From positions 9,173,001-9,237,000 of the forward strand of contig OX387197.1 in NCBI GenBank assembly GCA_947561715.1: a stretch of 64,000 bases of DNA, read 5' to 3'. Below, piece after piece: positions 9,418-64,000 of the stretch; position 1 is the first letter of the stretch, and every line of letters starts with the position of its first letter. Source of the DNA: Ascidia mentula (lineage: Eukaryota; Chordata; Ascidiacea; Phlebobranchia; Ascidiidae). The notes under the pieces were generated by a model. It saw only the letters and a list, made by a program, of their open reading frames with translations. It did not search any database and had not been told where the DNA came from. A program made the translations under genes and the position numbers.

Positions 9418-11358
9418 TCACCCCAAACACACAGTAAAGACTTTGAAGCCCATCATCAGGGTTGCAAGGCTGAGTATAATACCCGTTACCACGATGTTCT
9501 TGCTTTTCGCGTGAAAACGCACCAGATTTACCAACAAGCATGCCGCCGCAAACATGAACACGGGATAGATGGTGAAAAGGTACCGACAATATTCTTTGAA
9601 GAATCGCATTTCCGAGATGAACCATATCACCATGACGACGAGAAAAACACAAAGGGCCAACATAGATGCGTCTTCATTCGACAGAAGCCCTGTGGTAGAC
9701 CGCAAGGTGAATACGAGAAAATGCAAGCTGGCAGAATCAGCCGTGCTTCTGTACAATCTCCATCCCACAGTTAAGTATTTACAAATCCGCGAATTTTGGA
9801 TATTTTTACGTTATTCACTGTTATTCCCTGTGTTTTTAAGCATACCTAAAGTTACGTGTATGGCATAATTACGATCACTACAAGGCAGAGAAAACGTGTA
9901 ATGTTGTGTCCTGTCCAACTTGCCCCTAAGTTTGACTTCCTTTCCCTCAGTTACGGACTTGTAAATCACCACCTCCACAAAATTGAGGGTTGTTGCGACG
10001 GTGAGATTAGCGGCGTACAATGCGAGGCCGTTCTGCACCATCACCACATAGCACCAGAAAAGTTCTGCAATAAATTATCATGTTGCGCGATTAAGGCCAT
10101 GCGAGTTCAAAATCTAATAGCAGGTTATGGAACATACCTATACGTATCTTGTACAGTTGACTACGTACAGGTAATTTACGTTTCCCAAATTTAGTGAAAG
10201 GCAAGCATGTTTTATATTTGAGTTATTACATGTTGCAATGACGTTACAGCAACATCCGACAAGAAATGTGAAATACTGTGTTTACCCGAACTTATTTTAC
10301 ATTTTTTTACATGATTTTTTTACAACAGAAGTTTATTTTTATATCCTCAAAAATAATTTACTTGTGCTAATTTTATGTGTCTTTGGGATTGTTCAAAAAA
10401 ATATATCGAAAACAAACTTGGGTTGTTTTGCTTCAGGTCTTGTTTGACAGCGTGTAGCTTGTAACAGGAGAAGCCGGCTGCGATGTAGGTGCAGAGAGTG
10501 GCGAGCATGATGAGCAATAGACACATGTCCAAATTCTCTCGGTCGAACGAAATCTCCCACGGCATCACGAGTCCGAAGGCGAGAATATGAAAAACAACAA
10601 AGAGCTACACGAGGACTTTAGACAGCTCAGATGGTTTTATCAAGAGAAAAATATATTTCGCCTAAAACGGCATCGTTTATCGAAAGATTGCTTTGTTGGG
10701 ATTTTAATATATAATTATTGATACGGTGTGCGATCGACAGCCTGCCAGGGGCTTTTGGTTTTTTGATCCAGTTTTTATTTATTAATCACACAGCTACACG
10801 AGGATTAGTAAAAATCGCGCAACATGAAGTAAACAAAGTAACATTTATATCTTCATATGTCTGTTAAATACTAAAAGCTTTTGTACCTGGGGGACGACGG
10901 ATGGTTGAGTATTGAGCGGACTGTTGCGAAGAAATGCCAAAACCAGCATATAAGTTATCCCGATAAAGTTCCAAAGAAACACGATTGGCCATGATATCCA
11001 GAAATACGCGCTATGTGGCATAAGCTGATGTCCGTACTTTAGACTAAGCGATCGCTTTGTGGTTTGATATAACACTAAAATAAGAGGTTAGGTAATAATT
11101 TGAGAGGTTAACCTCAGCAATATTTAAATTATACTTTTTTGTTTATGAAAGATAATGTAATAGAAGCGCAATCTATCTTTGTTTTCGACAAATGTCATTT
11201 AACCGAACGCATTTTTGGTCTATATTTTTTTTAAACTGAAGTAACACAGCACTTGCACCGGTACCTTCCATGTCTTGCTTTCGCAGATAGCACATTACAA
11301 TAGTTCCAGCGTTCACCCACCAAGCAAACACAAGCAACACACTTTTTAGCTTGTCCAT
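9418..11358 (-). CDS. TspO/MBR-like polytopic membrane protein, copy A (most divergent)
   Basis: Five exons (5' to 3': 11265-11358, 10887-11074, 10418-10604, 9924-10064, 9418-9689) give 293 residues starting MDKLKSVLLV. The exon plan and phases match the other six copies, but the residues are the most diverged. The motif SWPIVFLWNF replaces the usual IWPIIYLWNL; the GWLFAFDRE motif reads MPWEISFDRE; the exon 4 motif keeps VQNGL and LTVATTLNF but loses its Trp; exon 5 keeps EYCRYLFTIYPV. Several hydrophobic segments are predicted. Intron 4 uses a GC donor (GCAAGT) and the intron 3 donor (GTTTGT) is weak, so the exon 3 end is less certain. It sits 3.2 kb from copy B at the downstream end of the array. 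Family knowledge: TspO/MBR proteins bind porphyrin and sterol-like ligands; no such role is shown here. Confidence 0.72.
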
Positions 11359-14300
11359 GATATCGGTAATATCTGTTCTAAGACACACCTGCTTGAAAAC
11401 CCTTACAACGTGCCTTTTATTCAGGTTTTCTTTGAAGCGAATTTTGGTTTAACTGGGAGGCGCTTATCAAGCCTGCTTTAGGACCGTGACCACAACAGAC
11501 GTAAATGGATTAACGCTGGTGTTGCCAAATTAGAATGGGCAAAAGATACATCTCCTGTTACCCTACGTTGCCATCAGCCAGCCTGGAGGTACGGATCGAT
11601 AATAATGTATTAGCATGGTCCGCTGGGACTCGAATTAGTTTTTGGATTTACGTTGATAACGTTATCGTTTGACGGTCGGTGCGAGATCCAGGACAGCACG
11701 CGGAGTGATGTAACAAAAAGTTTGTATATACCTACATCTCAAAATTTCAGGAAAAATCAATAATGACTCCAAACATGAACCAGACGTTCTTTGATTTGAA
11801 CCTCATGTGTAATCAATTATGAGTTTTATAATCCGACCGCGGCGTTACCAGCAGAAGTGCAAATGCACGCTCCTTTGTAAAAACATGACACAGCACCAAG
11901 GCGAATGGCATGGCACGCCTCCGGGACGGGAAAGCAAGGCGAGAACAAACAAGTGGTGACAGACAGAAGAAAGGACATCCCACACCCGTGGCCGTTTCAC
12001 TGAAAGCTGCAATTCGCTCTCGGATATCCAGCAAGACGCCCCGGACCTTGGCACAAAGGACCAGACTTTGGTTTCGCGGACGGTGTCGTCTATTTCGGGT
12101 TTGACCCTCGCGACACGTAAGGCCATGGACCGCGACAGGTTCCGTGTGGCTCCGTGAGGAATCTGTGGCACGCTCCCCAAAAGTGGGGTAAGTTCTCGGA
12201 CACCTGTTCTTCCTCTTAGACACCCCTCTCCAACTTGGACGGCCACGGTTCGCCGTTTGACAACCTGAAACCGAGCGATGCAAATGCAGCGTGATGAATG
12301 CTGTCTACTGACAGTGCCGGGCGGGAGATGTAAGTGCCCACAAGTGTACCCGGTGTTCATTTACTGCATCCCTGTTTGTTCTCACTGAAATAATTGGGTG
12401 TGCATCTTGTGCGAAGTTAAATAATTCGGCAGTTACAACCAATGATTATACGACACAAGGTTTTTACCCCCAAATTAAACCAAATATCGTATTGCCATTG
12501 TACACAAACATAATTTTTTATGAGCACAGTTTTTTATTTGCGTAGGTTACCTTTGTAGTTTACCCGTGATATAGAAGAAAATAGTTTTAATATGTTACCT
12601 ATGTTTTTAAAAATTTAAATAAAACGAAAGTCTTCCTTCCCAACAATTAAAAATGCCCCAAAACAATGTTGTCAGTTAGTCAACTTTCACCCAAACTTCG
12701 GTTTATGGCGGAGTCTTTATAGCTTCTTCAATTTTACAGCTTTTACACAGACAAGGAGCGATCTATCTCTTATACTTCTCCGCCTAATCCTCGTATGGAG
12801 GTGCGAGGATTTAGGAACATTTTTCTGTCGATCCGGTGGAGTCGAGCGGATAATGCGGACCAGAGGAACTGTAGTGACGTTAAGCTCCTTGGTAAATTTA
12901 ACTTGTCCGACGAATGCAGCAAAAGTCAGCGGGTCTCTGCAGGAATGACTCGTGACTCACAATTTCATGCACTTGATGTTTCAGGCGGCCATAACCTTTC
13001 CCGCCGAGGTTCGTAGATGACGAGGAGACTTGAACAAATTAAGTTACCAACAATTGTTTTTGTGTCAAAGGGGTGAAGTTTGTGTGAAGTTGTTTGTGAA
13101 CCGCCTTCCATGTCTTATATTTTTAAAGCGCGTTAAGAGCCTTCAACCAACATAATTTCCTCTCTTCAGCAACACTGAATATAGTTCTGATAAACGGTAA
13201 AAAAATCCGTTTGTTCCACAACCGTACGTGTTGGGATATTTGGATTTACCAAATGTGTGTGTAAACCGTGCGCGACATTTTTAACGTTGTAACAGTACGT
13301 TTATGCGCATTATATAAAACGGCAGTGTATAATGCAACTTTTTTTTATTAGTTTTATCACTTGGCGTTAACTGGACAACCGTACATCAGCTGGAGTGAGT
13401 ACATCAGTACGTGGCATTAGGGTCGTCTAGACAACGACGTGTGGGGGTCGATATCTTTTGAGCCTTTTTACTCATCCGTCAATTCGACTCCCCCTAAGCA
13501 AACTTTTTCGCCTAATGACCCAAAGCTTGTTGTTTTTAAGCTGTATGCGGGTAAATCTAAGCCTGGGGTGGAAAGATTGATGACGAAGCTGTCGTATGAC
13601 GCTTCTTGACATTTCAATGCTAACATCTTAATACCGGTTTAAATTCGGATGTATTATTATAGCAACGCACCAATAGGTGCAGTTAAATAAGACGTTTGTG
13701 ACGAGTGTGATCATCTGTGCATTTTAAGGTTAAAAAGGCGTTGCTCTCTTTTTTACGATCGCAATTTTTCACATACGACATTTTGGATGGGAGGGGGGAA
13801 TTTCGTAACCAACAATTTAAAATTATATTTAAACGTATTTACTAACAGAAAGATGCAAAAAAGGTCATTGTTTCGATACATCACTCGTTGATGATTTTTT
13901 TTCATAAGGAGCACGAATAACCGACCGAGTAAATAGTTTGGTTTTAAAAATAAATTACACAACAATGGCACATTTTCTGTTAAGTTGAACTGCGAAAATA
14001 TAACGTATTTGAATAATTTTCATACCTTAGGACACGAAAAAGTTTTTACCCAAAGCAGCAATGACAATAAATTGATTCGAAAATATATTGTTGAATGTTT
14101 GGTAAAAGAAACACTTTTCTTTCCATTAGAATAAAAACTGTACATGATGAGCCCAGGGGGCTGATGAATATCTATATTCTACTGCCACCAAGCGGAAAAA
14201 AGATCCATGACTTAATGAAAAATTCTGTTCAGCTCAATTTCGTTTGCGTTTACAAATATTTCCTTTTGCGCCTTACACATGTCAAGAGCAAATAAAAACA

Positions 14301-14601
14301 AACTTGCTTAATGAAAAAAGTTTATTATCCGGAAATTTGAACTTTTTACAAATGCACACGCATTGTACGTGTTTCCGCAATGAGGTAAGAAAAACAGAAT
14401 AGCGTATACGTCACACACAAATGTGACGAAAAAAACACTCTACGGCAAAATATAATAAAGCTTGACTCTACCTACAACAGGTTGGCTATGTCACTCTATC
14501 AAACAATGCATATATACGTTAATAATAAGACATAGGTAAGACACGATGCAAATTTGTTTACACTGTAATGTGCATACTTATGTAATGTATTGTAATGTTT
14601 G
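11359..14601. other. Long spacer between copies A and B
   Basis: No gene can be supported. A GC-richer island at about 11880-12350 holds two overlapping antisense open frames (Arg/Ser-rich translations, no domain), probably chance products of base composition. The rest is AT-rich. TTTATT near 14321, read on the minus strand as AATAAA, is a candidate poly(A) signal for copy B. Confidence 0.5.
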
Positions 14602-15990
14602 CTAAGCTGCTACGGAATAGGCTTTATTTCTTCTATACACAGCTAGAAAAATGCGTGCAATCAGTGCCATAAGAACGAGACCTAGATCAACGGAAGCAAT
14701 AATCAGATTCTGATTTCCATCTGGCAAAGGTCTCAGTTTGTCGATCAAAGCCGAAAGAGCGAGGATCAACACAGGGTAGATGGTGTAGGTGTAACGACAA
14801 TATTTTTCAAGGACAAAGTTTTCAAGAATGAACCACACGATGATAATTGCCATCAAAAGAACAAGAGACACGGTTGAACCGTTGACAACCGATATATTTC
14901 CTGTGAACAAACTTCAAATTATACTCTTTCAAGCTTTGGTCTTTAGAAAACTTGCTATCATTAGAGCATACCAGATTTTGAAATATCATAAACGTAAAAC
15001 TTAGACATGCCAAAAATGAATTTATCATTAAATTTTGACCTCGCAAAACAGCAGGTGTTACTCCAAAGCTGTCTTCATATATAATGATCTCAGCCAGATT
15101 TAAGAGGGTTGCAATGGTAAGCCAGGTTGCTAACGTGCAGAGCCCATTTTGTATCAATATCCTGACCAGCCACAGAATAACTTCAAAATCGGACAAAAGG
15201 TCAAGTTTTCATTTTTAATACACGTGTATAAGTAAAATTGCAGAGAGAATTTTAATGCCACATCTCTACTTTAAGCAAAATGCCAGTTGCATTCATACCC
15301 TTGTGATCAGCTTTGAGTGCGGGCGTATTGTCAACAGAAGCCTTGTAAGAAGTTCCAATCGCCGCATAAGCAGACAGTATGGATAGAATAAGAAGCGCTA
15401 AGGAAAGTCCTAATATTTCGCGATCAAATGCGAACAACCATCCAACCGTTGATGCAAATACAAGACCGTAAGCAAGTAGAAATGTCTGCAAACAAAACAA
15501 CCCATCATATGTGAACACACAACAAAAAATATGCGTCTGCAGGAAGCTATTGGTATTCGAGTCAACAATAGTTGATAAAAATGTACTGTATAATACTGTA
15601 GCTTAAACTGAACATGTCATTTACCTTGGGTATAAGCGTTGGAGTAAGTTTAACTGGGCTTCTGTCGACTGGAATGAAACACGAAACAAGTATGTAAACG
15701 ATTCCTACCAAATTCCACAAGTATATTATCGGCCAAACAATAGAAAATGCCACAGGCTTTGGGGATACTTGTTGATAATATTTGTTATCAACGTCGCTGT
15801 TTGAGCTTTGGTACAACCCTATTTACAAAAAATATATTCGTGAGTAACTAATACCTACAGATCAGACAACACAAGCTGGATTTATACTAAACTTACCTCC
15901 GATTTTGGCGGTATTTAAATAGGCAAAAACCAACGACAAAACGTAAGTGACAAATACAAACACTATTAATAAAATCTGTACTTTTTCCAT
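14602..15990 (-). CDS. TspO/MBR-like polytopic membrane protein, copy B
   Basis: Five exons (15897-15990, 15625-15818, 15299-15485, 15040-15180, 14602-14900) give 304 residues from ATG 15990 (MEKVQILLIV). Exon 1 is a hydrophobic segment ending AYLNTAKIGG. Exon 2 carries NKYYQQVSPK then IVWPIIYLWNLVGIVYIL. Exon 3 has GWLFAFDREILGLSLALL and exon 4 has QNGLCTLATWLTIATLLNL. Exon 5 has ENFVLEKYCRYTYTIYPV, DGNQNLIIASVDLGL and a basic tail. About seven or eight membrane segments are predicted, so an integral membrane protein is certain by inspection. The match to large bacterial tryptophan-rich sensory proteins rests on order and motif pattern. Exon 5 is nearly identical in DNA to that of copy E, unlike the other exons. 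Confidence 0.82.
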
Positions 15991-16107
15991 ATTTCAGCAA
16001 CTATTTCTGCCTATTGAGTATTAACACGGCCTGCTGTTGTTGTTGGCTAGGCGTGACTGGACGTTTGTGGCAAAAACAACGACGCCCCTAACCAGTCAAC
16101 CGAAACT

Positions 16108-16117
16108 GTTATATAAC
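16108..16117 (-). promoter_or_regulatory. TATA-like box of copy B
   Basis: On the minus strand the sequence reads GTTATATAAC, about 118 nt upstream of the copy B start codon. Similar TATATAA sites lie about 100 nt upstream of copies E and F, which supports a promoter role. Confidence 0.45.
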
Positions 16118-16157
16118 TTGCGACGCAGCGAGGTATGACGACGAAAACACACTAGAA

Positions 16158-16570
16158 CAGTGGTTCTCAAACTGTGGTACGCGTACCACTAGTGGTACGC
16201 GAGAGCTTTTCAAGTGGTACGCGATATAGTCTACTCTATACAATTTGCCGCACTTTGCAGAAGCCAAAACCGCTGCAAATACATGTTGTCGGTTTTCTTT
16301 ATTGTGCATTTGGGACGCAATAGTATCAACGTGAAATTGTTGCACTGTTGAAGTAATTCTGACATCGTGTATTCAACTGTGCAACAATTTCACGTTGATA
16401 CTATTGTGTCACAACTGCACAATAAAGAAATCCAAGCAACTGGTGATATTGGCTAAATTGTTATTGATTGGTGTTATGTCATAACAGTTATGGTATAGTA
16501 ATACGGTGGTACGCAGTGTATTAAAAAACAAATGAGCGGTACGTGATTGGAAAAAGTTTGAGAAACACTG
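16158..16570. mobile_element. Non-autonomous hAT-type MITE with 8-bp target duplication
   Basis: The 413-bp element begins CAGTGGTTCTCAAACT and ends in the inverted form of CAGTGTTTCTCAAACT, a 16-bp terminal inverted repeat with one mismatch. It is flanked by a perfect 8-bp duplication, CACTAGAA, at 16150-16157 and 16571-16578. An 8-bp duplication and the CAGTG...TCTCAAACT termini are typical of hAT transposons. The interior has GGTACGCG repeats near the left end. It also has a long internal hairpin, with arms at about 16318-16346 and 16380-16408 containing TATCAACGTGAAATTGTTGC and its complement. There is no transposase frame, so it is a passive derivative. Confidence 0.88.
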
Positions 16571-16958
16571 CACTAGAAGGAATTCGATTTTAGGAAAAAT
16601 AGTGGTTTAGGCACGATATTCACATTAGGCACAATATTTTACTAAGTTCTTGAATAAAATTCTTATACCTCGCTCTGCATGTCAACAAACTCTTTATTAG
16701 AAGTATTTAATTGTGCTCTCTGTAAATTGCATACGGACAAATATGACAAAACAACAAAACCTAAACAGAAAAAAAATGATGTGATTTTACTAATCACATC
16801 AGAAAAAAAATGTTTGGAAGAAAACACAAGTTTGATAATACTTGAATAGATACAGATCTAAACACAAAAAATATTTGTTTTGTTTGTACATCAACAACTA
16901 TATTGTTCCAATAAAAAAATGATGCTATCTTTTGAGTGATTGGGTATTGGTTACTAGT

Positions 16959-18382
16959 TTAATTGGATTTTTTCTGTAAAGAGTCAGATTTTTGCACAGA
17001 TTGGTTTTGGCGGTAACCAACTGCCATTGTCACTCGTGCAACAAGAGCCATAAGTGCTACTCCCAGGTTAATAGAAGCACAAATAAGATTTTGTTTGGCA
17101 TCAGGCAAATTATACAATTTGTAGGTTAGCCAAAAAAGACCATGAATAAGCACAGGGTATATGGTATATGTATATCGACAATATTTTTCAAAAATCAAAT
17201 TTTCCAAAATAAACCATCCCATCATAATTGCCATAAGCATGATAAGAACAACTGTTGATCCACTTTCTATCGAGAAACTTCCTGCAACAATATGCTCAGT
17301 TGGCAAACAAGGCAACTAAGTTATAAAAGATTTCAATTTTAATACAGAGGATTTAAAATTTGTTTATAAAAATATATTTGTCTGTTATTTTGTTTCAAGT
17401 TTAAACAAATGCTGTAACTTTGGTTTATTTGGGATTAATAGTGTTTCACAAAATACAAATTAGTAAAGTATTATTAAAAAAGTTTGTCACATTGTTACCT
17501 CGTAAGATGGCAGCAGAATCACCAAAACTGTCATCATATATAAGTAGATAAGCAAAGTTTAATAAAGTTGCAATAGTAAGCCATGCAGCAAAAGTGCAAA
17601 GGCCATTTTGCACCAAAATCCTCATACACCAAATACCAGCTGTTAAAAAAACATGATATTGAGATTGTACAAACAGTTTTTCATGCATGTCTGATACTAA
17701 AATGTCATTATTACCTTTGTGTTCAGATTGAGTTGATGTTATATGGTCATTGACTGTTTTATAGGATATACCAATTGCAGAATATACAAACAATATTGCA
17801 AGAACTAGCAGTAGAAAAGATAACCTCAAGAGTTCACGGCAATATGCAAAGAGCCATCCAACGGTTAACAAAAAAGATAAACCATAGCATAATAAAAATG
17901 TCTGTGAAATATACAATAATGGTTACAATTTAGCATTTATCAACCTTGGCTAAGTTAATGTCATTCATGTGTGTGTTAGAAATATTTTCCTTTTATAACA
18001 ATCTTAAATGATCTCCTAAGAATATACATTGAATTGCTACCCACATTAGGTACAAGCACTTGGCTTTTTCCACAGCATGCAATGATAATGTACAAAATCC
18101 CAACCAAATTCCATGAATATATAATTGGCCAAATAATACCAAAAGCAATGGGCTCTGGTGATGCTTGAAGAAAGTATTTATTGTCAATGTCTCCATTGGA
18201 GCTATAGAAGAGACCTGCTCAAAAATACATCATTAAAGAACCACAACTAATTGAGAAGTGATACGTCAGCATGAAAGCAACTTACTTTTCACACCGAAAG
18301 TATTTAAATACGCAAAAGCAAAAGAAGCCAAATAACTAGACAAGGCAAAAACTAGCAATAAACCCTTTACTTTATCCATCAT
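16959..18382 (-). CDS. TspO/MBR-like polytopic membrane protein, copy C
   Basis: Five exons (18286-18379, 18045-18214, 17715-17901, 17499-17639, 16959-17281) give 304 residues from ATG 18379; a second ATG directly before it (18382) would add one Met. Motifs match the family: NKYFLQASPEPIAFGIIWPI, GWLFAYCRELLRLS, QNGLCTFAAWLTIATLLNF and EKYCRYTYTIYPV. Exon 2 is 170 bp instead of 194, so the loop between the second and third hydrophobic segments is eight residues shorter. The usual SPVK...PTLVPK linker is reduced to GKSQVLVPN, followed by a GTGGGT donor. The C-terminal tail is longer and charged (QKSDSLQKKSN). The flanking DNA is more AT-rich than around B, D or E. Confidence 0.78.
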
Positions 18383-19249
18383 TTCCACAGGTTTTGAACT
18401 TGCAGAGCTGGTCAAGAACCAAAACACACCAAACACGCACAGGCAAGTTTTTCTAAAGGGGAATTTATACACTGTAGGCGCAACCAAGCGTCGCAAACAT
18501 AAAAATATAAACAAAAGCTGAAGTGGTTCTTACCAAATATTTGATTTTTATGAACAATTTAGCAATTTATTGTTTTGATGAAGTATGCGTAGTTCTCCTG
18601 ATTACGTGTTTTGATTGATTATTTCTGAAAAGATGTCAGCTCTGTTGCGTTAGCCTAGCACAATGCTATCACATCAATTTTCACAACTGCAATGCCTACA
18701 AATAATCTGATAGATTTTGGGGGTATTGTAAATGAACTTAGTGACAACGTGTAAAACATTCACCGAAAACGAAAACCAAACCATACTATTCCAGTTTTTG
18801 CTGATAACCACTGTGTTGTGCGTTTGTCTTGGGTCTCTTTCACATGTTTGATGTTTGGGTTGGTTACCTACTTTGCCGTGCTGCTTGACATTAGAATTCA
18901 TTTCTCAGTCTGCCTAACTTATACTTCAAACTTTTTTACTTTTAGCTTATCCTATGCAACGGTTTTGATTATCCTGTGTTATAGTTTACTTGATGCTTGC
19001 GTTGAACCGAATTACAATACCAGTGTTTTTTTTTGCTGAATTATGAAACCAAACAAGCAAGGTGCAGAGAAAGGGGTATGTTTATTGCAAGATAGTAAAG
19101 TTAGTTACTAATACATAGAAGACCATTGGTCTGAACGATGTTCTATTGCAAAAATACATAGCTGAAAATCGGATCCCAGTGTGACATGTTGTAAGATTAT
19201 ACGATAAACTCTAACCAAACTTAACCCGGTTCACGGGAAAGAAAAACGT
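18383..19249. other. Spacer between copies C and D
   Basis: No gene is seen. An open plus-strand frame at 18818-19039 has no recognisable domain or partner exons. TTTATT near 19080, read on the minus strand, is a possible poly(A) signal for copy D. Confidence 0.5.
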
Positions 19250-20570
19250 TTAATTTAATTCAAAATCGTGTTTGGCCACTAACTCGGACTTGCTGTATTT
19301 ACCAACTGCCAAAGCAATACGCGATATTAAAGCGAGAAGAACCAAGCCTAGATCTACGGATGCAATGATGAGATTCTGATTTCCATCGGGCAACCCCCTC
19401 AGCTTGTCAATCAAGGTTGAAAGCGCAAGAATCAACACGGGATAAATGGTGTATGTATATCTACAGTATTTCTCAAAGACAAAATTCTCGATGATAAACC
19501 ACGTGATGATGATGGCCATCAGGACAACAATTCCCACTGTTGAGCCGTTGATTGCTGATAAATTTCCTGTAGAAACAAAAATAATAGTTTGTAAGCACTT
19601 ACGTGAGACGAAAAGTAAATAACAGCATTTAATTCGATGGGGACGACCTCAATTGATATCTACGTGGAGATTGCAAGCCACAATCCTATACTTGCATGCT
19701 TCTAATTGCCAGTAAGGGGGAACTGGATTATAAATAACAGAACGTATATAGACAATTATTTGCTACTATACCTCGCAAAACAGCTGTCGTCACTTCAAAA
19801 CTGTCAACGTAAACAATAACATCGACCAAATTTATGAGCGTTGCAACCGTGAGCCAAGTAGCCAGAGTGCAAAGTCCATTTTGCACCAATATTCTCATCA
19901 ACCATAAAACAACTGCAAATATCACACTGTTTTCGACATTACTGTTTCGAACTGAGAGTTATGTTGAAAAAAACCTTTATTGTTCGTTTCGAGCGATGCA
20001 GAATTGTCCGTCACAGCTTTGTAAGAAATTCCAATTGCGACATAAACCGACAACATGGCTACAATAAGAAGCGCCAAAGATAATCCCAAAATTTCGCGAT
20101 CAAATGCAAATAGCCAACCGATGGTTGCCAGGAATGAAAGACTGTAAGGCACCAAGAACATCTACAAACAGAAAACAATGTTGTCCAAAACATTTCTTCA
20201 TAAACAATACCATATATACGAACCTTAGGTACGAGCGTGGGTGTCATTTTCACTGGACTTTTCTTCACAGGAAGACAGCAAGATACAAGAATGTAAATTA
20301 TACCCGCCAGATTCCATATGTATATTATCGGCCAAATTATTCCAAACGCAATACTTTTCGGTGATATTTGCTGGAAGTACTTTCTGTCGATGTCACCGAT
20401 CCCGCTGTTGCTGTACAATCCTATTCACGTGAAATTTAGGTTAATTTTAATTTTTTTATCTTGCCGAACAATTTACCTTCGAGGCCGAGTGAATTTAAAT
20501 TAGCAATGACTAACGACGAAATGTAAGATAGAAATGCGATCAATATCAAAATAAACTGCACTGTGTCCAT
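19250..20570 (-). CDS. TspO/MBR-like polytopic membrane protein, copy D
   Basis: Five exons (20477-20570, 20224-20420, 19975-20161, 19772-19912, 19250-19566) give 311 residues from ATG 20570 (MDTVQFILIL). Exon 2 is one codon longer than the standard (GLYSNSGIGDIDRKYF), with SPKSIAFGIIWPI and YIWNLAGIIYIL. Exon 3 has GWLFAFDREILGLSLALL and exon 4 has QNGLCTLATWLTVATLINL. Exon 5 has ENFVFEKYCRYTYTIYPV and DGNQNLIIASVDLGLVL, then a charged tail ending HDFELN, like copy E. The exon 5 protein is almost the same as in B and E although the DNA differs at many third positions, a sign of selection on the protein. The intron 3 donor (GTTTTT) is weak. Confidence 0.82.
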
Positions 20571-21529
20571 CTTGTCTGACCTGTTTTTGTTCAGCGTTAG
20601 TTATATTGTCTGCATCGCACCAGGGACCTTCCTTTTTATACACAGCACCACGTCATGGACGCAACTCGTCGGCATGAGTGATGTAATCGCTGGTAAAAAG
20701 ACAAAGCGACAAGGCAAGATTTTAGGATGCATCAAAACTACATTTTTTCTCCAAATTTCTCAAATGTCATCAAACTTTCAAACGCACGACAACGTTTAAA
20801 AACCGTATAACACCACAATGGACGAACAGGTCATTCTTGATTGCAAATTTACGTATGACGAAAAATCTCAACTATCAAACGACTTTGCCACACACTAATA
20901 TATTAAGCAACAAACATGGATTGATTTGTTTTTCGGGGTGCAAACGATCGTCGTGACACGTTTCAGTTATGTAACGCGCTCGTGTCGAAGGCAACTTGCC
21001 AAAATCGTTTTAATCGATAATTGTTTTAACGTTATGCAATACTGCAAAACGGGAGGCATGCTGATAAAAGTCATTTCCTCCACAAATACTATATATGGGA
21101 TACAATGACATTATTAGTTTTGTGATGCAAACCCACAAACCATTAATACTATTTTTTTTCTTTGTGAAGACAAACAAATAAAAAATGTGGTCGTTAAATA
21201 CAGCGTTCGACTGAACAAATTTCCATTTGGCTTTAGCTGATGCAAACATACATACAATATTACATAGAAAAGTATTCTACAATCAAAATGTATCCAATTC
21301 GACTGCAAGCTAAACAAATTTTCACAAAAAAGACTGCATTTTGAAAAGGCTTTTATTATTATTGTGAAGTTTTGTTCAAAAAAATTAATTGTACATCATC
21401 GTGAAACCATGCGTGTAAAACATCGTCACTAATCCTCTACGTGGGCAACAATTGTTGAGTCATCACAATTAAAGATAAAACAATTTAGCGATTGTAATTT
21501 GCATTTGAATGTAATCGACAAAACAAAAA
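20571..21529. other. Spacer between copies D and E
   Basis: It holds the copy D promoter side (20631-20657) and otherwise AT-rich DNA with no gene. TTTTATTATTATT near 21345, read on the minus strand, offers poly(A) signals for copy E. Confidence 0.5.
20631..20657 (-). promoter_or_regulatory. Copy D promoter: CATGACGTGG plus TATA
   Basis: On the minus strand CATGACGTGG is followed after 7 nt by TATAAAAAGG, about 61 nt upstream of the start codon. The same CATGACGTGG with a TATAAC 6 nt later lies upstream of copy F, and a CCACGTGATG with TACATAAC upstream of copy G. TGACGTGG is also the core of unfolded-protein-response and CRE-like elements; that reading is only a suggestion. Confidence 0.5.
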
Positions 21530-22938
21530 TCATTTGAGTTCCATATCGTGCACTGGACTTGACGATTTCTTTTTCCTGCACACTGCCAATACAATGCGTG
21601 CAATAAGTGCCACAAGAACGAGACCTAGATCAACGGAGGCAATAATCAGATTCTGATTTCCATCTGGCAAAGGTCTCAGTTTGTCGATCAAAGCCGAAAG
21701 AGCGAGGATCAACACAGGGTAGATGGTGAAGGTGTAACGACAATATTTTTCAAAGACAAAGTTTTCAAGAATGAACCACACGATGATAATTGCCATCAAA
21801 AGAACAAGAGAGACGGTTGAACCGTTGACAATTGAAATTATTCCTGCAAACAAATGAGAGCAAGGATTTACATTCGATATAATTTCGTACACTAATTGTT
21901 TTCTAAATACGCACTGTAATTGCTGGGAACAGCGGTACGTAATGTCAAACAAATCAAACTGTTTTTACGCAAACACACATGCGCTGTTAAATAATTTAAA
22001 TCACTGCCGCAGTAATCATCTGTTCAATAGTTACCTCTCTGAACAGGAGGCTCTACTCCAAAGCTATCCTCGTAGATGATAACATCGGCAAGATTCAAAA
22101 GTGTTGCCACTGTAAGCCATGTCGCAAACGTACAAAGCCCATTTTGAACCAATATCCTGGTTAACCACATCACAACTGCGCAAATGTGTCATTACTTTTT
22201 AAATTTGGTGGTTACGGTTTCCTATATTCCTTACCTTTGCAGTCGGTCTCGAGGGAGGCTACATTGTCAGCCACAACCTTGTAAGAAGTACCGATAGCAA
22301 CATAGACTGAGAGTATGGCTAATATAAGAAGAGCCAACGACAGGCCAAGGATTTCGCGATCAAATGCAAACAGCCAGCCGACGGTCGATGAAAACGCCAA
22401 ACAGTACGCGACCAGGAATATCTGCACATGAATGCAATATTGAAGCCAGCAGAATGTTTTTGTTGCCATACACACGCGTACACAGCGGAAATTGCCACTT
22501 TAGCCTATTCATCCGAAAGGCCTGCTTTGCAAAAGCTCAATGGTGGCACTGAACAGTAGTTTGTAAACATACACAATACAAACCTTGGGTACAAGCGTTG
22601 GCACCATCTTGACTGGGCTCTTCTTTTCAGAAAGACAACATGATACAAGAATATAAACGATACCAGCCAGGTTCCATAAGTAAATAATGGGCCAAACAAT
22701 GGCAAACGCAATGCCTTTTGGTGAAGCTTGTTGATAATATTTATTGTCAACGTATCCATTGTCGCTGTAGTACAAGCCTGCAGTATGGATAAACCAGTTA
22801 AAAGGTGTCGTTGTTCGACAAACGAATATTAAATAAGTACTGACCTTTAACCTCAAATGTGTTCAGATATGCAAAAATAAAAGAAGCAAGGTAGCATACA
22901 AATGCTACAACTATCAAAACTAACTGCACCTTGTCCAT
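21530..22938 (-). CDS. TspO/MBR-like polytopic membrane protein, copy E
   Basis: Five exons (22845-22938, 22584-22777, 22235-22421, 22035-22175, 21530-21843) give 309 residues from ATG 22938 (MDKVQLVLIV). Predicted membrane segments lie at about residues 5-26, 50-74, 97-117, 122-141, 160-195 (one long or two short), and three more in exon 5. Hallmarks are NKYYQQASPK, IVWPIIYLWNLAGIVYIL, GWLFAFDREILGLSLALL, QNGLCTFATWLTVATLLNL and EKYCRYTFTIYPV. A loop of extra-membrane residues (SEKKSPVKMVPTLVPK) precedes exon 3. Bacterial relatives show the same order: a short first segment, a Pro/Tyr spacer, F-x-IWxxIY, a W-rich segment, then W-ITVATIAN. The tail ends in KKKSSSPVHDMELK. No localisation signal can be read. 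Confidence 0.83.
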
Positions 22939-23038
22939 TTCGCACCGTGTCTTTCTCTGCAATGTTTCAGTAGCTCTGCGTAATTCCACTGGTCGTCGTA
23001 CGCGTACAGAATCTCTCACGGTCGGTGTAGCGTTGCGG

Positions 23039-23046
23039 TTATATAA
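23039..23046 (-). promoter_or_regulatory. TATA box of copy E
   Basis: The minus strand reads TTATATAA about 100 nt upstream of the start codon of copy E, within a locally GC-rich stretch. Confidence 0.5.
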
Positions 23047-23465
23047 GCGCCGGCGTCGACAATGCCTAATCTACTTTATCGCGTAGTTTTACAGTTATGC
23101 AACATGATGTTTGCTGTACTCAAAGAGAAAAAACGCTTTATGACGCAACAGGAGAAACAAACCACCTTGTCCGAAGACAGAAGTATTCGATAAATAACAA
23201 CTAACAACTAAATATACTGAAAAATAGGCTTAACGACAAAAACAAACCGTGTTTGCCTGTTTTCCCCAGTGTACCGACACTTGCTAGGCAATTCTGCGCT
23301 GGCACCTCATGCACTCTAAAAACAATGATAAACCATGGTATCTGATAATTGTAGTGCAGATGTGCTAGCCCCGCCTTACATTTCTTCTTTTTTGACGGTT
23401 GCGTTCTCTTTCAGTTTGTGCGCTTCAAAATTGTCCACGTTGTGTTATTTACATTTCTCTACATC

Positions 23466-23499
23466 CTGATGAAGGCTGCTGCATGGTTGCCGAAACGTG
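23466..23499 (+). repeat. CTGATGA...GAAAC short repeat, divergent copy
   Basis: The segment starts CTGATGAAGGCTGC and ends CCGAAACGTG. It resembles the two longer, better matched copies at 25949-26008 and 44967-45015, which start CTGATGAG and contain GGTCGAAACAGT. The similarity is partial. Confidence 0.35.
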
Positions 23500-24114
23500 A
23501 ATGTAATAAAATTAGTGCAACAATAAAACATGCATGACAGCATCAGTAGAAATTTAATAAAAATATGCTTTTGTAATCCATTGGCCCCATTGAGAAACTA
23601 AGCTTTTATCGCACTAAACTTCGTTAGGGTCATATTACACCGCATGCTGTACTACAACATGATGTAACAGCGCAAACATTGTTCCTTACGTAACTTAAGC
23701 TTATTTAAGGATAAACCAATAAAGTTTGAAATCCGCCCTCAATCAAAACCTTTATCATGCTGCGTGCTGACTCACTGCTTGAACCCATTTTAACCGTATG
23801 TGTTACGTAAGTACTTGTATTGCCACTTTGTAAGGCCGTTGTTGTATTGGCGTAGTTGTAGCAATGCGAAATATTGCATGACACAGAATTTTCATTTGGA
23901 AAACAATGCATAATAGGTATGATGACGACATATATCTACTCTACTACTTCTATTCTTCACTTGAAGCAAATGTCAATGGTAAAATGTACAAAAATACAAT
24001 GAAATGTGACGTTACTTATCAGCAGACTGATAAGATAGCAATACGTGGAAAAGCAAACAGGTAAACAAGATTAAATCTTATAGTAAGCGACAAAACGATG
24101 ACTTCATCTCAAAA

Positions 24115-25405
24115 TTAAACCAAAAACGATGCGTTTTTGTTTCTGCACAGAGCCAGTGTTATTCGTGCAATAAGAGCCAACAGCACCAAACCCAAATTGA
24201 CGGAAGCAATGATCAGGTTTTGGTATGAGTCTTTTTTTTCACTCAGCTTATCAATTATCCCCGATAGAGCAAGAATAAGCACTGGGTAGACAGTGTAGGT
24301 GTATCTGCAATACTTCTCAAAAACAAAGTTTTCTGTTACAAACCATGCAATGACATACACCATCAAAATAACCAGAGGAATGGTTGAACCGTTGATCACC
24401 GAGATAGTGCCTGAAAAACCAGAAAGGTATAATAGCTAATATATGCTGATCGGTATGCTTGCTATAATCCCACCTCGCCAAGTCACTGGCGTTTTACCGA
24501 AGCTGTCTTCATATAATATTACGTCGGTTAAGTTCAATAAAGTTGCTACAGTGAGCCAAGTTGCCAATAAGCACAATCCGTTTTGTATAAGTATCCTCAT
24601 CATCCAAAGCATAACTGCAATATATATAAACCCGGTTTGTAAAAACGATAAATAATGTTAATATTTATACCTTTGTGGTCGGCTTCAAGCTTTGTCGCGT
24701 TGGAGGTGACAACCTTGTAAGACGTACCCACGGCAAAGTAAACAGAAAGTTGAAAAATAATAAGCAACGCAAGGGCCAGGCCCAGTATTTCACGTTCATA
24801 AGCAAAAAGCCAACCAGTACCCGCAGCGAAAGCCAAAATGTGACCAACTAAGAAACTCTAAAGGAATATGCACGTAAGTGTGTTTGTATATAGTTTTTAC
24901 ATCAGGTACAAACCTTTGGTATCAAAGTCGGACGGAAATTCACGGGACTTTTTTCCTGTGGAAGAAAGCACGAAACTACAATGTAAACAATTCCCACCAG
25001 ATTCCACAAATATATGATTGGCCAAATAATAATAAATGCGAGAGGTCTGGGTGTTGCTTCGTCGTAATAACGGGCAGCAGCTCTTCCAATCGAACTGTTG
25101 TTGGGGTCTGAAGACATTTACATCATTATTTTAGTAACCGGTGCACCTTTTGTGTTTTGTTTGCACGAAAACGAATTTGGATAACCATTAGGATTTAAAA
25201 CGCACTTTTTGAAGTGCACAAATAACTGCACTTTGCGCTCGCTTTTCAACAATTCACACATTATTTTCATTGTATTGCAAAATCATCGAAACAAAGTTAC
25301 ACCTTCATCGCTCCCGGGTTGGTTGAAGTACGAACAAATCACTGCTGTAATATAAACAAAGAAAGCTACTACGACCAACACAAGCTGCACAACGTCCCTT
25401 TGCAT
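24115..25405 (-). CDS. TspO/MBR-like polytopic membrane protein, copy F
   Basis: Five exons (25303-25405, 24914-25107, 24671-24857, 24474-24614, 24115-24410) give 306 residues. The start chosen is ATG 25405 (MQRDVVQLVLVV); exon 1 is 103 bp, three codons longer than in most copies. Exon 2 has RYYDEATPRPLAFIIIWPI and YLWNLVGIVYIV. Exon 3 has GTGWLFAYEREILGLALALL and exon 4 has QNGLCLLATWLTVATLLNL. Exon 5 has ENFVFEKYCRYTYTVYPV, then DKLSEKKDSYQNLIIASVNL, where B, D and E have RxLPDGNQN. An ATG in intron 1 sequence just before the exon 2 acceptor (25117) could look like a start, but the in-phase exon 1 is preferred. Confidence 0.8.
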
Positions 25406-25481
25406 TTCTGCCTTTGTCTCGACGCACTGAGCAAATGTTTGCACGCCCTACAGCGAACTACAGAATGCGTCACGATTCCCT

Positions 25482-25516
25482 GTTATACAACAGCCACGTC
25501 ATGACCTCTTATATAA
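25482..25516 (-). promoter_or_regulatory. Copy F promoter: CATGACGTGG plus TATA
   Basis: On the minus strand the order is TTATATAA (25509-25516), CATGACGTGG (25494-25503) and TATAAC (25482-25487), the last about 77 nt upstream of the start codon. The CATGACGTGG to TATA spacing is 6 nt here and 7 nt in copy D. Confidence 0.5.
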
Positions 25517-25948
25517 TTTCGTGCACGGTCGGGTGACTGGACGTTTTTCGCATGATTCACGTGACCAACAAGACTTTGCAGTTGTTTTGGTCTTGCTGCA
25601 GATTTGGCTTGTTTGCTCTATATAGCATTAGTTTTAAATGGGATATAACAAAAACAAGTTTCCAGTTTCCAGAATATTAACCTCATGCATAATCGAAACA
25701 CACAGTTTTTTTCACATCGCAATGTTCTACATTCTGGATAGACTACATACACTTCACGAATTTGTCCGATTTAATTTGTACAAATAGTACTTATACAAAC
25801 TCGTGTACTTCTAGGTGTTTCTACAAGCTTCCAGTACATTACGAGCAAAAAAAAAGCCGCACTTCAAAAACGACATTATATCTTAACAAAAACTTTCGAA
25901 AACCACGTTTTCCTGTTAGTCTACCAGCTAGCACAGTGCCACATCAAC

Positions 25949-26008
25949 AGCTGCACTGATGAGACCTTACAGGTCGAAACAGTGCGTGTATACACCCTGT
26001 CTGCAGCT
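25949..26008 (+). repeat. CTGATGAG...GGTCGAAACAGT...CCCTGTCTGCAG repeat
   Basis: About 60 bp aligns with the reverse complement of 44967-45015. Both carry AGCTGCACTGATGAG, AGGTCGAAACAGT and CCCTGTCTGCAG in the same order; this copy has about 11 extra bases in the middle. It abuts the broken end of the family remnant at 26011, as if it had inserted there. The family is not identified. Confidence 0.55.
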
Positions 26009-26010
26009 CT

Positions 26011-26200
26011 CACGTTTTCCTGATATACAAGCCTCGTGATGACAATAACCAACGAAAGAATAAAGGTATCCGGAAAGCAATTTTCCATTGATATTAGATC
26101 AAACAACTTGCTTGAAAGCTTGACTCGTAAATTTGGATACCTCATAACATTGCTGGGGAGGGACCCCGAAACTGTCCATGTAGCACATCACAATCACCAA
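26011..26200 (-). pseudogene. Remnant of an eighth TspO/MBR-like copy (parts of exons 4 and 5)
   Basis: On the minus strand, about 26200-26147 reads VIVMCYMDSFGVPPQQCYE followed by GTATCC. It matches the end of exon 4 (DVIIYEDSFGVxPAVLRG plus donor). About 40 nt later, 26112-26020 reads LISMENCFPDTFILSLVIVIT then YQENV, matching the start of exon 5 of copy G (LISMVNGSS...MIVITWFIIENFV). The order and spacing fit one exon-intron-exon piece. Exons 1-3 and the start of exon 4 are not found, and exon 5 stops where the repeat at 25949-26008 begins. The conserved Gly after VN and the KYCRYTY motif are gone, so it cannot encode a normal protein. Confidence 0.6.
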
Positions 26201-26591
26201 ACTATTCTATTTCAATATATGCCATTTATTTCTTTGCCGGAAAACTACCTTTTGCACTTTTTTGCCATTTGTCCAAGATTTTTTATTGCCACTTGGCAGG
26301 GAACTTACCTGTTGAATAACAAAGACAGCAACAAAAACATGCTTGACGAGTTTTTACAAACAAGAAGTTCAAAATCGAGGTGAAAATCAGTCTCACAGCC
26401 AGTTTTTATTGAAGACACGTGTACGTCACGACAAAATAATGACATGAAGGAAGAATGTGCGATCACTATCTACAAATGTGCATACATCGCACTGTGACAC
26501 TTGCAGAGGAGAATGCTGTGTACACACAGGTAATACTCGCACAAAATGAAAGCATAAATCGTTGCCAACACTCCAAGAAAAGGCAAATCGA

Positions 26592-28397
26592 CTAAGCGCT
26601 TTTGTAACCAGCGTTTCTTGATGCTTCAAGTGCAATACGCGCAATAAACGCCACGAGAACTACGGTGAGATCGATGGAGGAAATAATAAGGTTCTGATTG
26701 GCGTTGGGAAGCTCTCTTAACTTGGAAATCAACGCCGAAAGTCCAAGCACCAACACAGGGTAGATGGTGTAAATGTAGCGACAATACTTCTCCAGGACGA
26801 AGTTTTCAATAATGAACCACGTAATAACAATCATCAACAAGAGAATGAGGGAAACTGAAGAACCGTTTACCATCGATATCAGACCTGCAAGAACAGTTTG
26901 CAAATTCAAAATAGTCGTCATAAGCATCGTACGGCACAGTATAATTAGGCCTACCTCGTAAAACGGCAGATGCTTTACCAAAGCTGTCTTTGTAAATGAG
27001 CACATCAGCCAAGTTGATCAGAGTTGCAACCGTGAGCCATGTTGCCAAAGTGCTGAGACCATTATGTATCAAAATTCTCATCAACCAAAGGACAGCTACA
27101 ACGAAAAATAAACATATGCGTAATAATTGTTTATCAAGAACGTATTTTATTTTTGTAAATGATTTATGACAAAAATATCCGGTCATTTTAAACTTTTGGA
27201 ACTACTGCCAGTCAGAGTTTAGTTTTAGGTCGTCCTTTACGCTTTATTATTTTAGGCTGTGAGTTGGGAGATGTAACGATTGCCTTTTATTCACAAAAAA
27301 AGATTTTTAAGATTTCGACCGTTTACTCGAAATAAAAAAACGAAAAAAATTGCAGTGTTACAAAAAGATGTGACTACATCAGTATACGCTTTACGAACTT
27401 TAAGTGATAATTCACATCCGTTGCGAATCATCGACTACCGAGGCCTCGATACCAATGCGCCGCGAATCATTATACCACCGCCTGAAGCATTGCAATGAGT
27501 AATTGCGCGCCGCCCGATAAGATGCATTACACGCTTATCTTTTACCCGCTTGCCAGAAACGGCTTGCATTTTTTCTGACACCTCTCAGTGAAATGACACA
27601 AAAACAACAGACCATTAGTCTCCCAAACTTCTTTGTCCTTCATACCTTTGTTCTGTTTCTCCAGAGATGCACTGTTATCAGTTACAACTTTGCATGAGAT
27701 GCCAATGGTGAAGTATCCAGCCAGTATTGAAACAAAGAGACAAGCAAATGCCAACCCAAGCATTTCCCGATCAAAGGCAAAAAGCCATCCCACAGTAGCT
27801 ACAAATGTTAAACTGTATCCAATCAGAAAACTCTAAAAAACAATATATTTAAAGTTATTTACAAAAGTTTGTGTCAAAAGACAAATAAGTAGAACAACAT
27901 ATTAAGGTATTGATGAATAAGTCGTTATAGACCTAAATCCAAAAATTGTTGTTGTTTTTACCTGAGGAACCAAGGTTGGTGTCATATGCACTGGACTGTT
28001 GTTTGCAGGCAGAAAACAGGACACAACAATATACAAAATTCCGGCTAAATTCCAAGTGTAAATGATCGGCCATATTATGCCAAATGCAATTCCTTTTGGG
28101 GACACTTGCTGGGAGTATTTTTGGTCAAGATCTGCAATATTGTTGTAGAACAATCCTGCAAAACACAATAAATGTATCAGCGAGGGTTAAAGTTTCAAAA
28201 ACACTACAATATGAATGCTTATTTTATCAAACTTTTATCAGCTAGCTGAAGGTGACAAATTTTCCGTAAACACGACAGCACTCAATATTACAGAATATCA
28301 TACCTTTTATTCCTGCAGAGTCTAGATAGGCAAACACTAAACCGGACACATAACTTAAAAATGCAAGTGCAACCAACGCTAACTGAGCTACATCCAT
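26592..28397 (-). CDS. TspO/MBR-like polytopic membrane protein, copy G
   Basis: Five exons (28304-28397, 27962-28155, 27646-27832, 26955-27095, 26592-26884) give 302 residues from ATG 28397 (MDVAQLALVALAF). Motifs are QKYSQQVSPKGIAFGIIWPI, YTWNLAGILYIV, GWLFAFDREMLGLAFACLF, HNGLSTLATWLTVATLINL and ENFVLEKYCRYIYTIYPV. Asn replaces Gln in the QNGL motif region (IHNGL), and Cys replaces Tyr in the usual SYK (SCK). Intron 3 (27096-27645) is the longest of this gene. It is the first gene of the array and diverges from RPF1, with 512 bp between the two start codons. Confidence 0.8.
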
Positions 28398-31694: not shown

Positions 31695-34600
31695 ATGCAG
31701 CGCATGCTATTTGGTTACGGAACGCTCCGCGGCACAGCGATTAAGTACAAGAAGCTGCTAGGCGGGTTAGGTGGCTGCTTTTTGGTGTTTGTTTTGGCTT
31801 ACACGTACGTACATGATGGCAGGCCGGGCAAAGTGCGGTCTTCCAATCTTGACCACAATGGTCCGGATCCATTTGCTTTCCTGCAAAGCCTGGATCCAAA
31901 GGAATTGAAGAAGCTTGCAATCGGTGAGACGGAAATAAATCCTCTACATGCAAGCAAACTCGTAGATAACCTGCTTGATTTGAGTAAAGAGTCATTGGTG
32001 CAATCGGACAGCAATGTGTCGGTGGTAACGAAAAAGCTAAGTACGTAGCATAGGATTTGTGTCAAAGGATAGGCCTACAATGTAAATGATTACAATACAA
32101 GTAATGTTTTCTTGTGATATTTGTTTACTAAGATCTGCTGGCACCGGGTCGCTTTCTTTCTGCTAAGATAACTTCTGAAAAAGTTGATTTAACTTGTGGT
32201 GAAGAGATTGCAGTTATTTTGCTTTGGCCTGCACACTGTGTGACCGTATATTTATGACCGTTTCAATATAAACCCTATCCGTACGATATACATTTTACTT
32301 TAATAATTACGAACTTTTTGTATACAGTATATGACAAAGACGGCCAGGAAATTGGACTCCGTTTTCTTGTATTAAGTGATTGGGGCGGTGAATCGAAAGC
32401 CCCCTACATTACACACACACAAATGAACGTAGGCCGATCTTTGGCTCACTTTGCCGCTAAATTCGATTGCTCTTTCGTACTTTCTCTCGGTGACAATTTT
32501 TGCGAGGAAGGTGTCAAGGATGTCCACGATATGAGGTTTGAGGTAAGTGAGATATAAGTGCAAGCAGTTAAGCTAATATCAGTTTCAACAGGCCTTTAGT
32601 TGGCACAATATTCCAACCAAGTGATCATGATTCCAAATCACAGTATGCTTGTAATCCTTAGTTTTTTTTAACTCAAATTAACTTTTCAATTTAAAAAATT
32701 GAGTTTTTGGAAATCAGAAGAAATTTCTGCCGTTTGCAATGCATCACTTCGTGGCACAAAATACACAATCTGTGGCCACCTTCCGAATGAACGAATGTAT
32801 TAAATATCCGCAAGGGTGCGTGAAAGAGCAATTGGAATATTTTATTGCAATGGTCTGATGATGAAAAGGTGGCTCCCTCTTCCTACGTGATTTTCACATT
32901 ATGAGGAAATGCCGTCGAACCCAAACTGAAGACCGGTTGCTCAGTCCATCAACTCTCTCGCCGTAAAATTATAAAGTGCCCCCTTCAACCAGAGCCTCTT
33001 TACTAGATAGGAACTTTGGTGCCGACAATAAAAGTAAATGTAAGTGTTTTTACATTTACTTTCCAGGACACATTTGAAGACGTGTTTACGCATCCTTCGC
33101 TGCAGAGACCCTGGTATATTGTGGCTGGAGACAGGGATTACAAGGGGAACGTTTCCGCTTTAATTGCCTACACCAGCATATCAAGGTACTACATTCATTT
33201 TGCAAAGTTAATTACACAGCGGGACGTTTTATTTTAACCATTCTCTTTTTTCAGAATTAAAAATTAGAAATATTGAAAAATATTCCGAACGGCGATAATA
33301 AGAAAAAGGAAGTAGAACAATTTAAGTTATTCAGTTCAGATACTTCAATGTTAAAGAAGACAACCCAAGTAGATACAACACACTGATATTAATTTAGACC
33401 CTATGGTAGTCTGTCTAACAATGTCAGGTGAAACACAAATACAAGTGGCACAACTTAAGTTGAAATGAAACTTACATTGTTTTAATCGTTGCTGGCTAAT
33501 TTTTCTCGCTTTAACAAATCATTTGGTCATTTTGTCTCGTGAACAGGTAGTTAATGATCAAAACGACAATTGTTTTTTTTTCACATAACTTGTAGAAAAA
33601 GATCAGATACCAAGTCTTGGTTGTCCATAAGACTGTTTAGTGAATCTGATACTTTATCATAGAGGTTTTTATGAACTTTTCTATAAGATATAAAGTTTTT
33701 AATTTCCAAGGGTAAAGTATGCATAGATTGCTTTGGATCGGCAGACCTGATTTAGTCGCCATTTACACACGAGATAACAAATCACCATTTAGTTTTTCTA
33801 CAAATTTACAGCTGAATAATTTTAGGCAATTATAAACTAATACATACTAAACACGAAAACATTCCATCGCTGTCAGAAAACATGGAACACAATGTTGCAA
33901 AAAATATTTTCCGGTTCTAGAAATGCCGATACCGTGACACACCCCTTGGCAGGGTCGTACTTGATTCTCGAAATGTCGTAAATAACCCTCATTACGTAAG
34001 CATTACCAATTAAAGCACAACGACATTTGGACTCTGGGGTACAGGTGGTGCTTTGTCACACAATGAAAAACTTCCACAACGATTACGATTGCGACGCCGT
34101 GGGCTAATTGCATGTTTGCGCAATGCAAGTTACCGCGTGACCAGCAATAAGCAACATAAGTTTTATGGTTGATCACGTTCAGCTTTGTCGACGCGACGGA
34201 GTTTGTACCCAAGTATTATTTGCACTCAATGCCGCTGTGTTGATTTTCGAATCGCAATGTGATTGCTCGCCACCGAACTTTGCCCCGGAGGAGTGGAATT
34301 CGGATTGCTCAAGCCCGGTTCAGGCGTCGGCTAGCTGTTGTTTATCACCCGCCAGCTGCTCTTGCAAAATCACTTGCGTCGTCAATTTTTGTTCGGTGTT
34401 AGCTATCAGCGCCTCCGGGTATGAAGTGCTACGCGTTTAATTGACAGGAGATGGAACTTCGAAAGCAGGTATTACAAGATGTCGGCGACACTCCCCACTT
34501 TCCGCAATGTTTCCGTCGACTTTGTTGTGATCGACACCGTCCAGCTCTGCGGTCAATTGCCCACTGGAGGCGGTAGACAACCCAGAGGACCAGAGAACAT

Positions 34601-61401: not shown

Positions 61402-64000
<2,599 letters not shown>

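Follow-up and report, generated by a model that had tools for sequence, protein, structure and literature searches.

Seven tandem genes for putative eight-helix membrane proteins in the ascidian Ascidia mentula: an old family with a putatively TspO-like domain

In animals, TSPO is a protein of the mitochondrial outer membrane, and vertebrates carry one or two genes for it, each encoding five helices. It has attracted much research as a target for drugs and imaging, yet its function is disputed. A review proposes that TspO proteins bind haem and porphyrin and that some members carry out a light-induced degradation of porphyrin (PMC8243069), and degradation of protoporphyrin IX in vitro is cited in a 2026 paper on Bacillus cereus (PMC13185565). 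This article describes seven genes that lie in tandem in a window of 64,000 nucleotides from the ascidian Ascidia mentula (assembly GCA_947561715.1, contig OX387197.1, positions 9,173,001 to 9,237,000 of the forward strand; "the window" denotes this whole stretch), and that an initial annotation had called TspO/MBR-like. We give a probability of roughly 0.6 to the reading that the seven genes form an old tandem family whose membrane proteins join a TspO-like domain of five helices to a C-terminal extension of three, with ligand handling of the pocket type.

The seven intact genes, each of five exons, are arranged head to tail in minus orientation from position 28397 to 9418 of the window and are lettered A to G from high to low coordinates (Table 1). 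They lie exactly where the initial annotation had placed seven complete genes in one orientation, and when spliced all seven translate from ATG to stop with no internal stop codon, into proteins of the length that it had given (293-311 residues). Intron phases (1-0-1-1) and the lengths of exon 3 (187 bases) and exon 4 (141 bases) are the same in all seven; exon 1 has 94 bases in six genes and 103 in gene B, and the protein of gene E is 8 residues shorter in the loop following helix 2. A GT donor is present in 27 of the 28 introns, the sole exception being a GC donor in intron 4 of gene G (window 9923-9922, minus strand). The gene models are based on the splice structure common to the seven paralogues and one unlinked relative, C70, which is described below. 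A scan with the exons of gene A matched all five exons of all seven genes, although the score of exon 1 of gene G did not rise above noise (E 11); that exon was placed by position, length and phase. Because exon lengths are fixed and 55 residues are invariant in the alignment of the seven proteins, the genes are genuine paralogues, and chance is not an issue. The motifs named in the initial annotation are present, with variation, and its estimate of some eight hydrophobic segments is a fair one, as a plain hydropathy scan resolved each protein into some seven to eight distinct clusters, with overlapping peaks merged by eye. Its statement that no unrelated gene separates the copies was tested in part: ten open frames were scanned against Pfam, of which eight lie inside the array and sample four of the six gaps between its genes; none passed a cut-off. 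The 2.2 kb searched between genes G and F had genome matches only to itself.

The closest relatives traced outside this genome are bacterial. Plasmid genes retrieved with a composite bait (40 records, 28 of them from Thermus) mostly carry the annotation "tryptophan-rich sensory protein" or are called hypothetical. Seven diverse proteins from these plasmids were aligned, an eighth that carried no annotation being left out, and hhalign matched the array to this alignment at 95.1% (E 3.1e-8). A scan of contigs for prokaryote loci confirmed 584 of 592 pattern matches; the best 80 of these, which were kept, are mainly from Cyanobacteria and Chloroflexota, with one labelled as an archaeon. With 87 bacterial proteins in one profile and eight animal proteins in the other, the match rose to 97.0% (E 1.1e-10, 215 columns), and over all such comparisons it ranged from 97.0 to 97.1%, with E about 1e-10 and 190-215 columns. 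On the bacterial model the alignment covers helices 2-7; it takes in a single residue of helix 8 and none of helix 1. The profile searches that the initial annotation had proposed as its check placed no array protein above the cut-off of a curated Pfam family and matched this bacterial eight-helix family at 97%. We take the array to be an animal branch of a prokaryote-type TspO relative with eight helices; the genes of this branch contain introns and have expanded in tandem.

The relationship to TspO itself runs through the bacterial family: the array belongs with that family by profile, and the family belongs with TspO by a Pfam match (PF03073) and one predicted fold. The prediction was made for a single bacterial member, L101, with 46 other contig-derived rows, and its predicted helices 1-5 superpose on the crystal structures of two bacterial TspO proteins, BcTspO (4RYI) and RsTspO (4UC1), so that a TspO-type fold is predicted for this one member. 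Among Protein Data Bank (PDB) sequences the bacterial profiles also hit TACAN/TMEM120 weakly, with a best E of 0.028 and over helices 5-7 only; these hits were disregarded.

According to one paper, Y32, P42, W51, N87, W138, A142 and L145 of BcTspO are critical to the binding of PK11195 and conserved in RsTspO (PMC7956637). These positions were transferred by profile alignments from BcTspO to L101 and from L101 to gene C, whose numbering is used here. Every array protein, and C70 as well, has P42 (P51), W51 (W60) and A142 (A182). W138 (W178) is present in six and in C70, and is replaced by asparagine in gene G; the equivalent of L145 is leucine in five and in C70, and isoleucine in A and D. At the position of BcTspO F90, all seven array proteins, C70 and 46 of 47 bacterial members have a tryptophan (W112). 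Across those 47 members the proline and tryptophan of helix 2 and the tryptophan and alanine of helix 5 are invariant, and the tryptophan of helix 3 is kept in 46; all five of these family residues occur together in six of the seven array proteins and in C70, gene G lacking the tryptophan of helix 5.

Several results weigh against a TspO-like reading of the array. At E<=10 none of the seven proteins matched PF03073 in Pfam, and neither did C70; a direct profile comparison between the array and five-helix TspO (eight proteins of 136-165 residues) was not significant; and two positions of the TspO site are lost throughout, N87 being replaced by threonine in five array proteins, glycine in B and valine in G, and Y32 being kept in none. 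The label given in the initial annotation accordingly survives as a distant relationship by way of the bacterial eight-helix family, and fails as a direct assignment, given the missing PF03073 matches and a length (about 300 residues) twice that of TspO. Other searches were negative within their scope. A PF03073 search of the ascidian's own genome was empty, which is a weak test since it proceeds exon by exon, and a residue query with mouse TSPO was empty too and uninformative, the gene being split by introns and the query lacking a positive control. Against Pfam no array protein passed a cut-off, the best line being DUF1056 (0.0086, one member, below cut-off); against NCBIfam the best array E-value was 0.073 (one member), and C70 scored 8.2 bits where the cut-off is 150. 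PDB sequences yielded no array match, either by single protein or by profile. When prokaryote contigs were scanned with the array profile, 45 pattern matches and no relative emerged; a C70 query of plasmids found no match; and the top-ranked open-licence literature contained no article on the family in any animal, tunicates included.

The most serious alternative, which we nevertheless consider rather unlikely, is that homology to TspO extends to the fold only, the eight-helix form being a transporter, channel or assembly factor in which the conserved pocket residues are structural. The loss of N87 and Y32 is what such a protein might show, and the extra helices hold residues that are invariant in the array, E232, YCRY at 239-242 and YPV at 247-249 (partly changed in C70), as does the region following helix 3, where an R-E pair is likewise invariant. 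Against this, the proline, tryptophan and alanine of the pocket are kept throughout the array and in all 47 bacterial members (the second tryptophan in six of the seven array proteins), and no transporter family exceeded its Pfam cut-off with any array protein. A second alternative holds that the proteins form an unrelated polytopic family and that the bacterial match arises from shared membrane composition. The sequences are hydrophobic, identity to the bacterial family in the profile alignments is low (21-23%) and no curated family matches; but reversed and shuffled versions of the bacterial profile, which have the same composition, fell to 0.3% (reversed) and 0.1-0.2% (five shuffled), as against 97%, and the motifs are colinear across 190-215 columns, so that we regard it as very improbable.

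The age of the copies bears on why there are so many. Pairwise protein identities are 47-76% among A to F and 31-34% between G and the others. By the Nei-Gojobori method (NG86), synonymous differences are too many to be corrected in 12 of the 21 pairs; in the other nine the synonymous divergence (dS) is 1.0-2.6 and the ratio of nonsynonymous to synonymous divergence (dN/dS) 0.08-0.33, the least diverged pair being C and F (dS 1.0). Because synonymous sites are mostly saturated while the proteins are conserved, the copies are old, not homogenised, and under purifying selection. An eight-protein tree does not order the duplications, all five of its inner branches being open. A recent gain in copy number for dosage, with likeness kept up by gene conversion, would suit the tandem, single-orientation and similarly spaced arrangement, but is rejected on protein identities of 31-76%, on synonymous differences that are saturated or at least 1.0 and on intron lengths that vary between genes; the dosage role that the initial annotation had entertained is unlikely for the same reasons.

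The genome (195.8 Mb in 79 contigs) was searched with the proteins of gene C, gene G and C70 as queries. Besides the array, two unlinked relatives were found among the best candidates scored, C70 and C72, named after their contigs, which brings the family to at least nine genes, seven of them in the array. The large expansion suggested by the initial annotation thus holds within this genome. C70 resembles the array genes in its five exons and all four intron phases, and has 39% identity to gene C; C72 shares the IW, DRE and YP motifs, but is much more divergent and its exon arrangement is seemingly different. A further weak match lies at C1:25,554,215 (E 1.5, one internal stop).

In the reading that we prefer, that of an old family with a TspO-like domain and an extension, helices 1-5 would be encoded by exons 1-4 and the three-helix extension by exon 5. 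Each protein would be seated in a membrane and would hold a hydrophobic or amphipathic ligand, of the porphyrin/haem or the sterol/lipid type, between helices 1-5, in a putative pocket with two or three tryptophans. The proteins may sequester this ligand, pass it on or degrade it under light, and the work may be divided among the copies by ligand, tissue or stage; ligand or tissue specialisation, also raised by the initial annotation, is possible. Gene G has probably changed its ligand or activity, since its branch in the tree is long (1.82 changes per column) and it has lost one pocket tryptophan. A bolder version, in which seven tunicate-specific eight-helix proteins with TspO-type pockets are each tuned to a tetrapyrrole, sterol or secondary metabolite of their own, forming a multigene ligand-handling system in a chordate, as against the one or two five-helix TSPO genes of vertebrates, appears to us a long shot. 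Seven old and conserved paralogues, one of them lacking a pocket tryptophan, lend themselves to a comparison that could show which residues, and which of the extra helices, are important, and if expression differs by tissue the array could help to show the purpose of the pocket.

The sole non-array feature found within the array is a dispersed repeat of about 100 bases between genes A and B (Table 1). At least 66 further places in the genome carry it (40 of 1,580 candidates scored), mostly at 93-100% identity along some 100 bases, and copies often stand two or three together within about 200-400 bases, in either orientation. By eye it has a hammerhead-like core, CTGATGAG...CGAAAC...GTC, with AGCTGCA/TGCAGCT as helix I. 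The hammerhead models of Rfam scored below their cut-offs on the repeat (29.1 of 56.3 bits and 24.8 of 48.5 bits), and plain folding did not favour a hammerhead (z -0.50). The repeat is a possible retrozyme-type hammerhead (type I), a kind of element described for animals (PMC7229834). Elsewhere in the window, matches of the lipid-transfer-protein type (41226-58676, plus strand) look like one large gene, and a stop-free frame of 3,636 codons extends over 46798-57705 on the same strand. Exons at 32258-35834 (plus strand) resemble purple acid phosphatase by eye; two frames were scanned and gave no such Pfam match. In mitochondrial COX1 (contig C79), 13 of 15 AGA or AGG codons fall at glycine columns, and all four TGA codons at tryptophan; glycine for AGA/AGG is the ascidian mitochondrial code (NCBI table 13).

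Table 1. Positions of the array genes, their unlinked relatives and other features (window coordinates unless a contig is named).
Feature	Position	Strand	Product or description	Exons	Basis
Gene A	26592..28397	-	302 aa	28397-28304, 28155-27962, 27832-27646, 27095-26955, 26884-26592	spliced open frame
Gene B	24115..25405	-	306 aa	25405-25303, 25107-24914, 24857-24671, 24614-24474, 24410-24115	spliced open frame
Gene C	21530..22938	-	309 aa	22938-22845, 22777-22584, 22421-22235, 22175-22035, 21843-21530	spliced open frame
Gene D	19250..20570	-	311 aa	20570-20477, 20420-20224, 20161-19975, 19912-19772, 19566-19250	spliced open frame
Gene E	16959..18379	-	304 aa	18379-18286, 18214-18045, 17901-17715, 17639-17499, 17281-16959	spliced open frame
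Gene F	14602..15990	-	304 aa	15990-15897, 15818-15625, 15485-15299, 15180-15040, 14900-14602	spliced open frame
Gene G	9418..11358	-	293 aa, divergent	11358-11265, 11074-10887, 10604-10418, 10064-9924, 9689-9418	spliced open frame
C70 relative	contig C70, about 15,024,246-15,028,504		complete five-exon single gene		
C72 relative	contig C72, about 11,790,500-11,792,100		single, more divergent gene		
Dispersed repeat	25912-26012	+	about 100 bases		
Vitellogenin_N	41226-41678	+			Pfam match
LOC400499 family	in 46798-54700	+			Pfam match
VWD	58353-58673	+			Pfam match
Carboxylesterase exon	63362-63697	-	PF00135		61.7 bits vs cut-off 27

Compared with the described systems, the array stands nearest to the bacterial and archaeal proteins exemplified by WP_273769954.1 of Nostoc and WP_011174490.1 of Thermus, for which "tryptophan-rich sensory protein" is an annotation label. 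The two share, in the same order, P..F.IW..IY, a tryptophan in helix 3 and W..VAT..N in helix 5, and their helix counts appear similar. The bacterial proteins are mostly of 250-270 residues (range 238-335), as against 293-311 in the array, and features of the array side are the R-E pair after helix 3, an NGL motif before helix 5, the YCRY..YPV motif near helix 7 and four introns per gene. A family met here otherwise only in prokaryote records now has members in an animal genome, where its genes contain introns and have duplicated in tandem. To TspO/TSPO, as represented by the two crystal structures, the array would be alike in the five-helix fold of helices 1-5, a likeness drawn through the bacterial family, and it differs in that TspO has five helices in all, in 136-165 residues among the eight proteins used, whereas each array protein has about 300.
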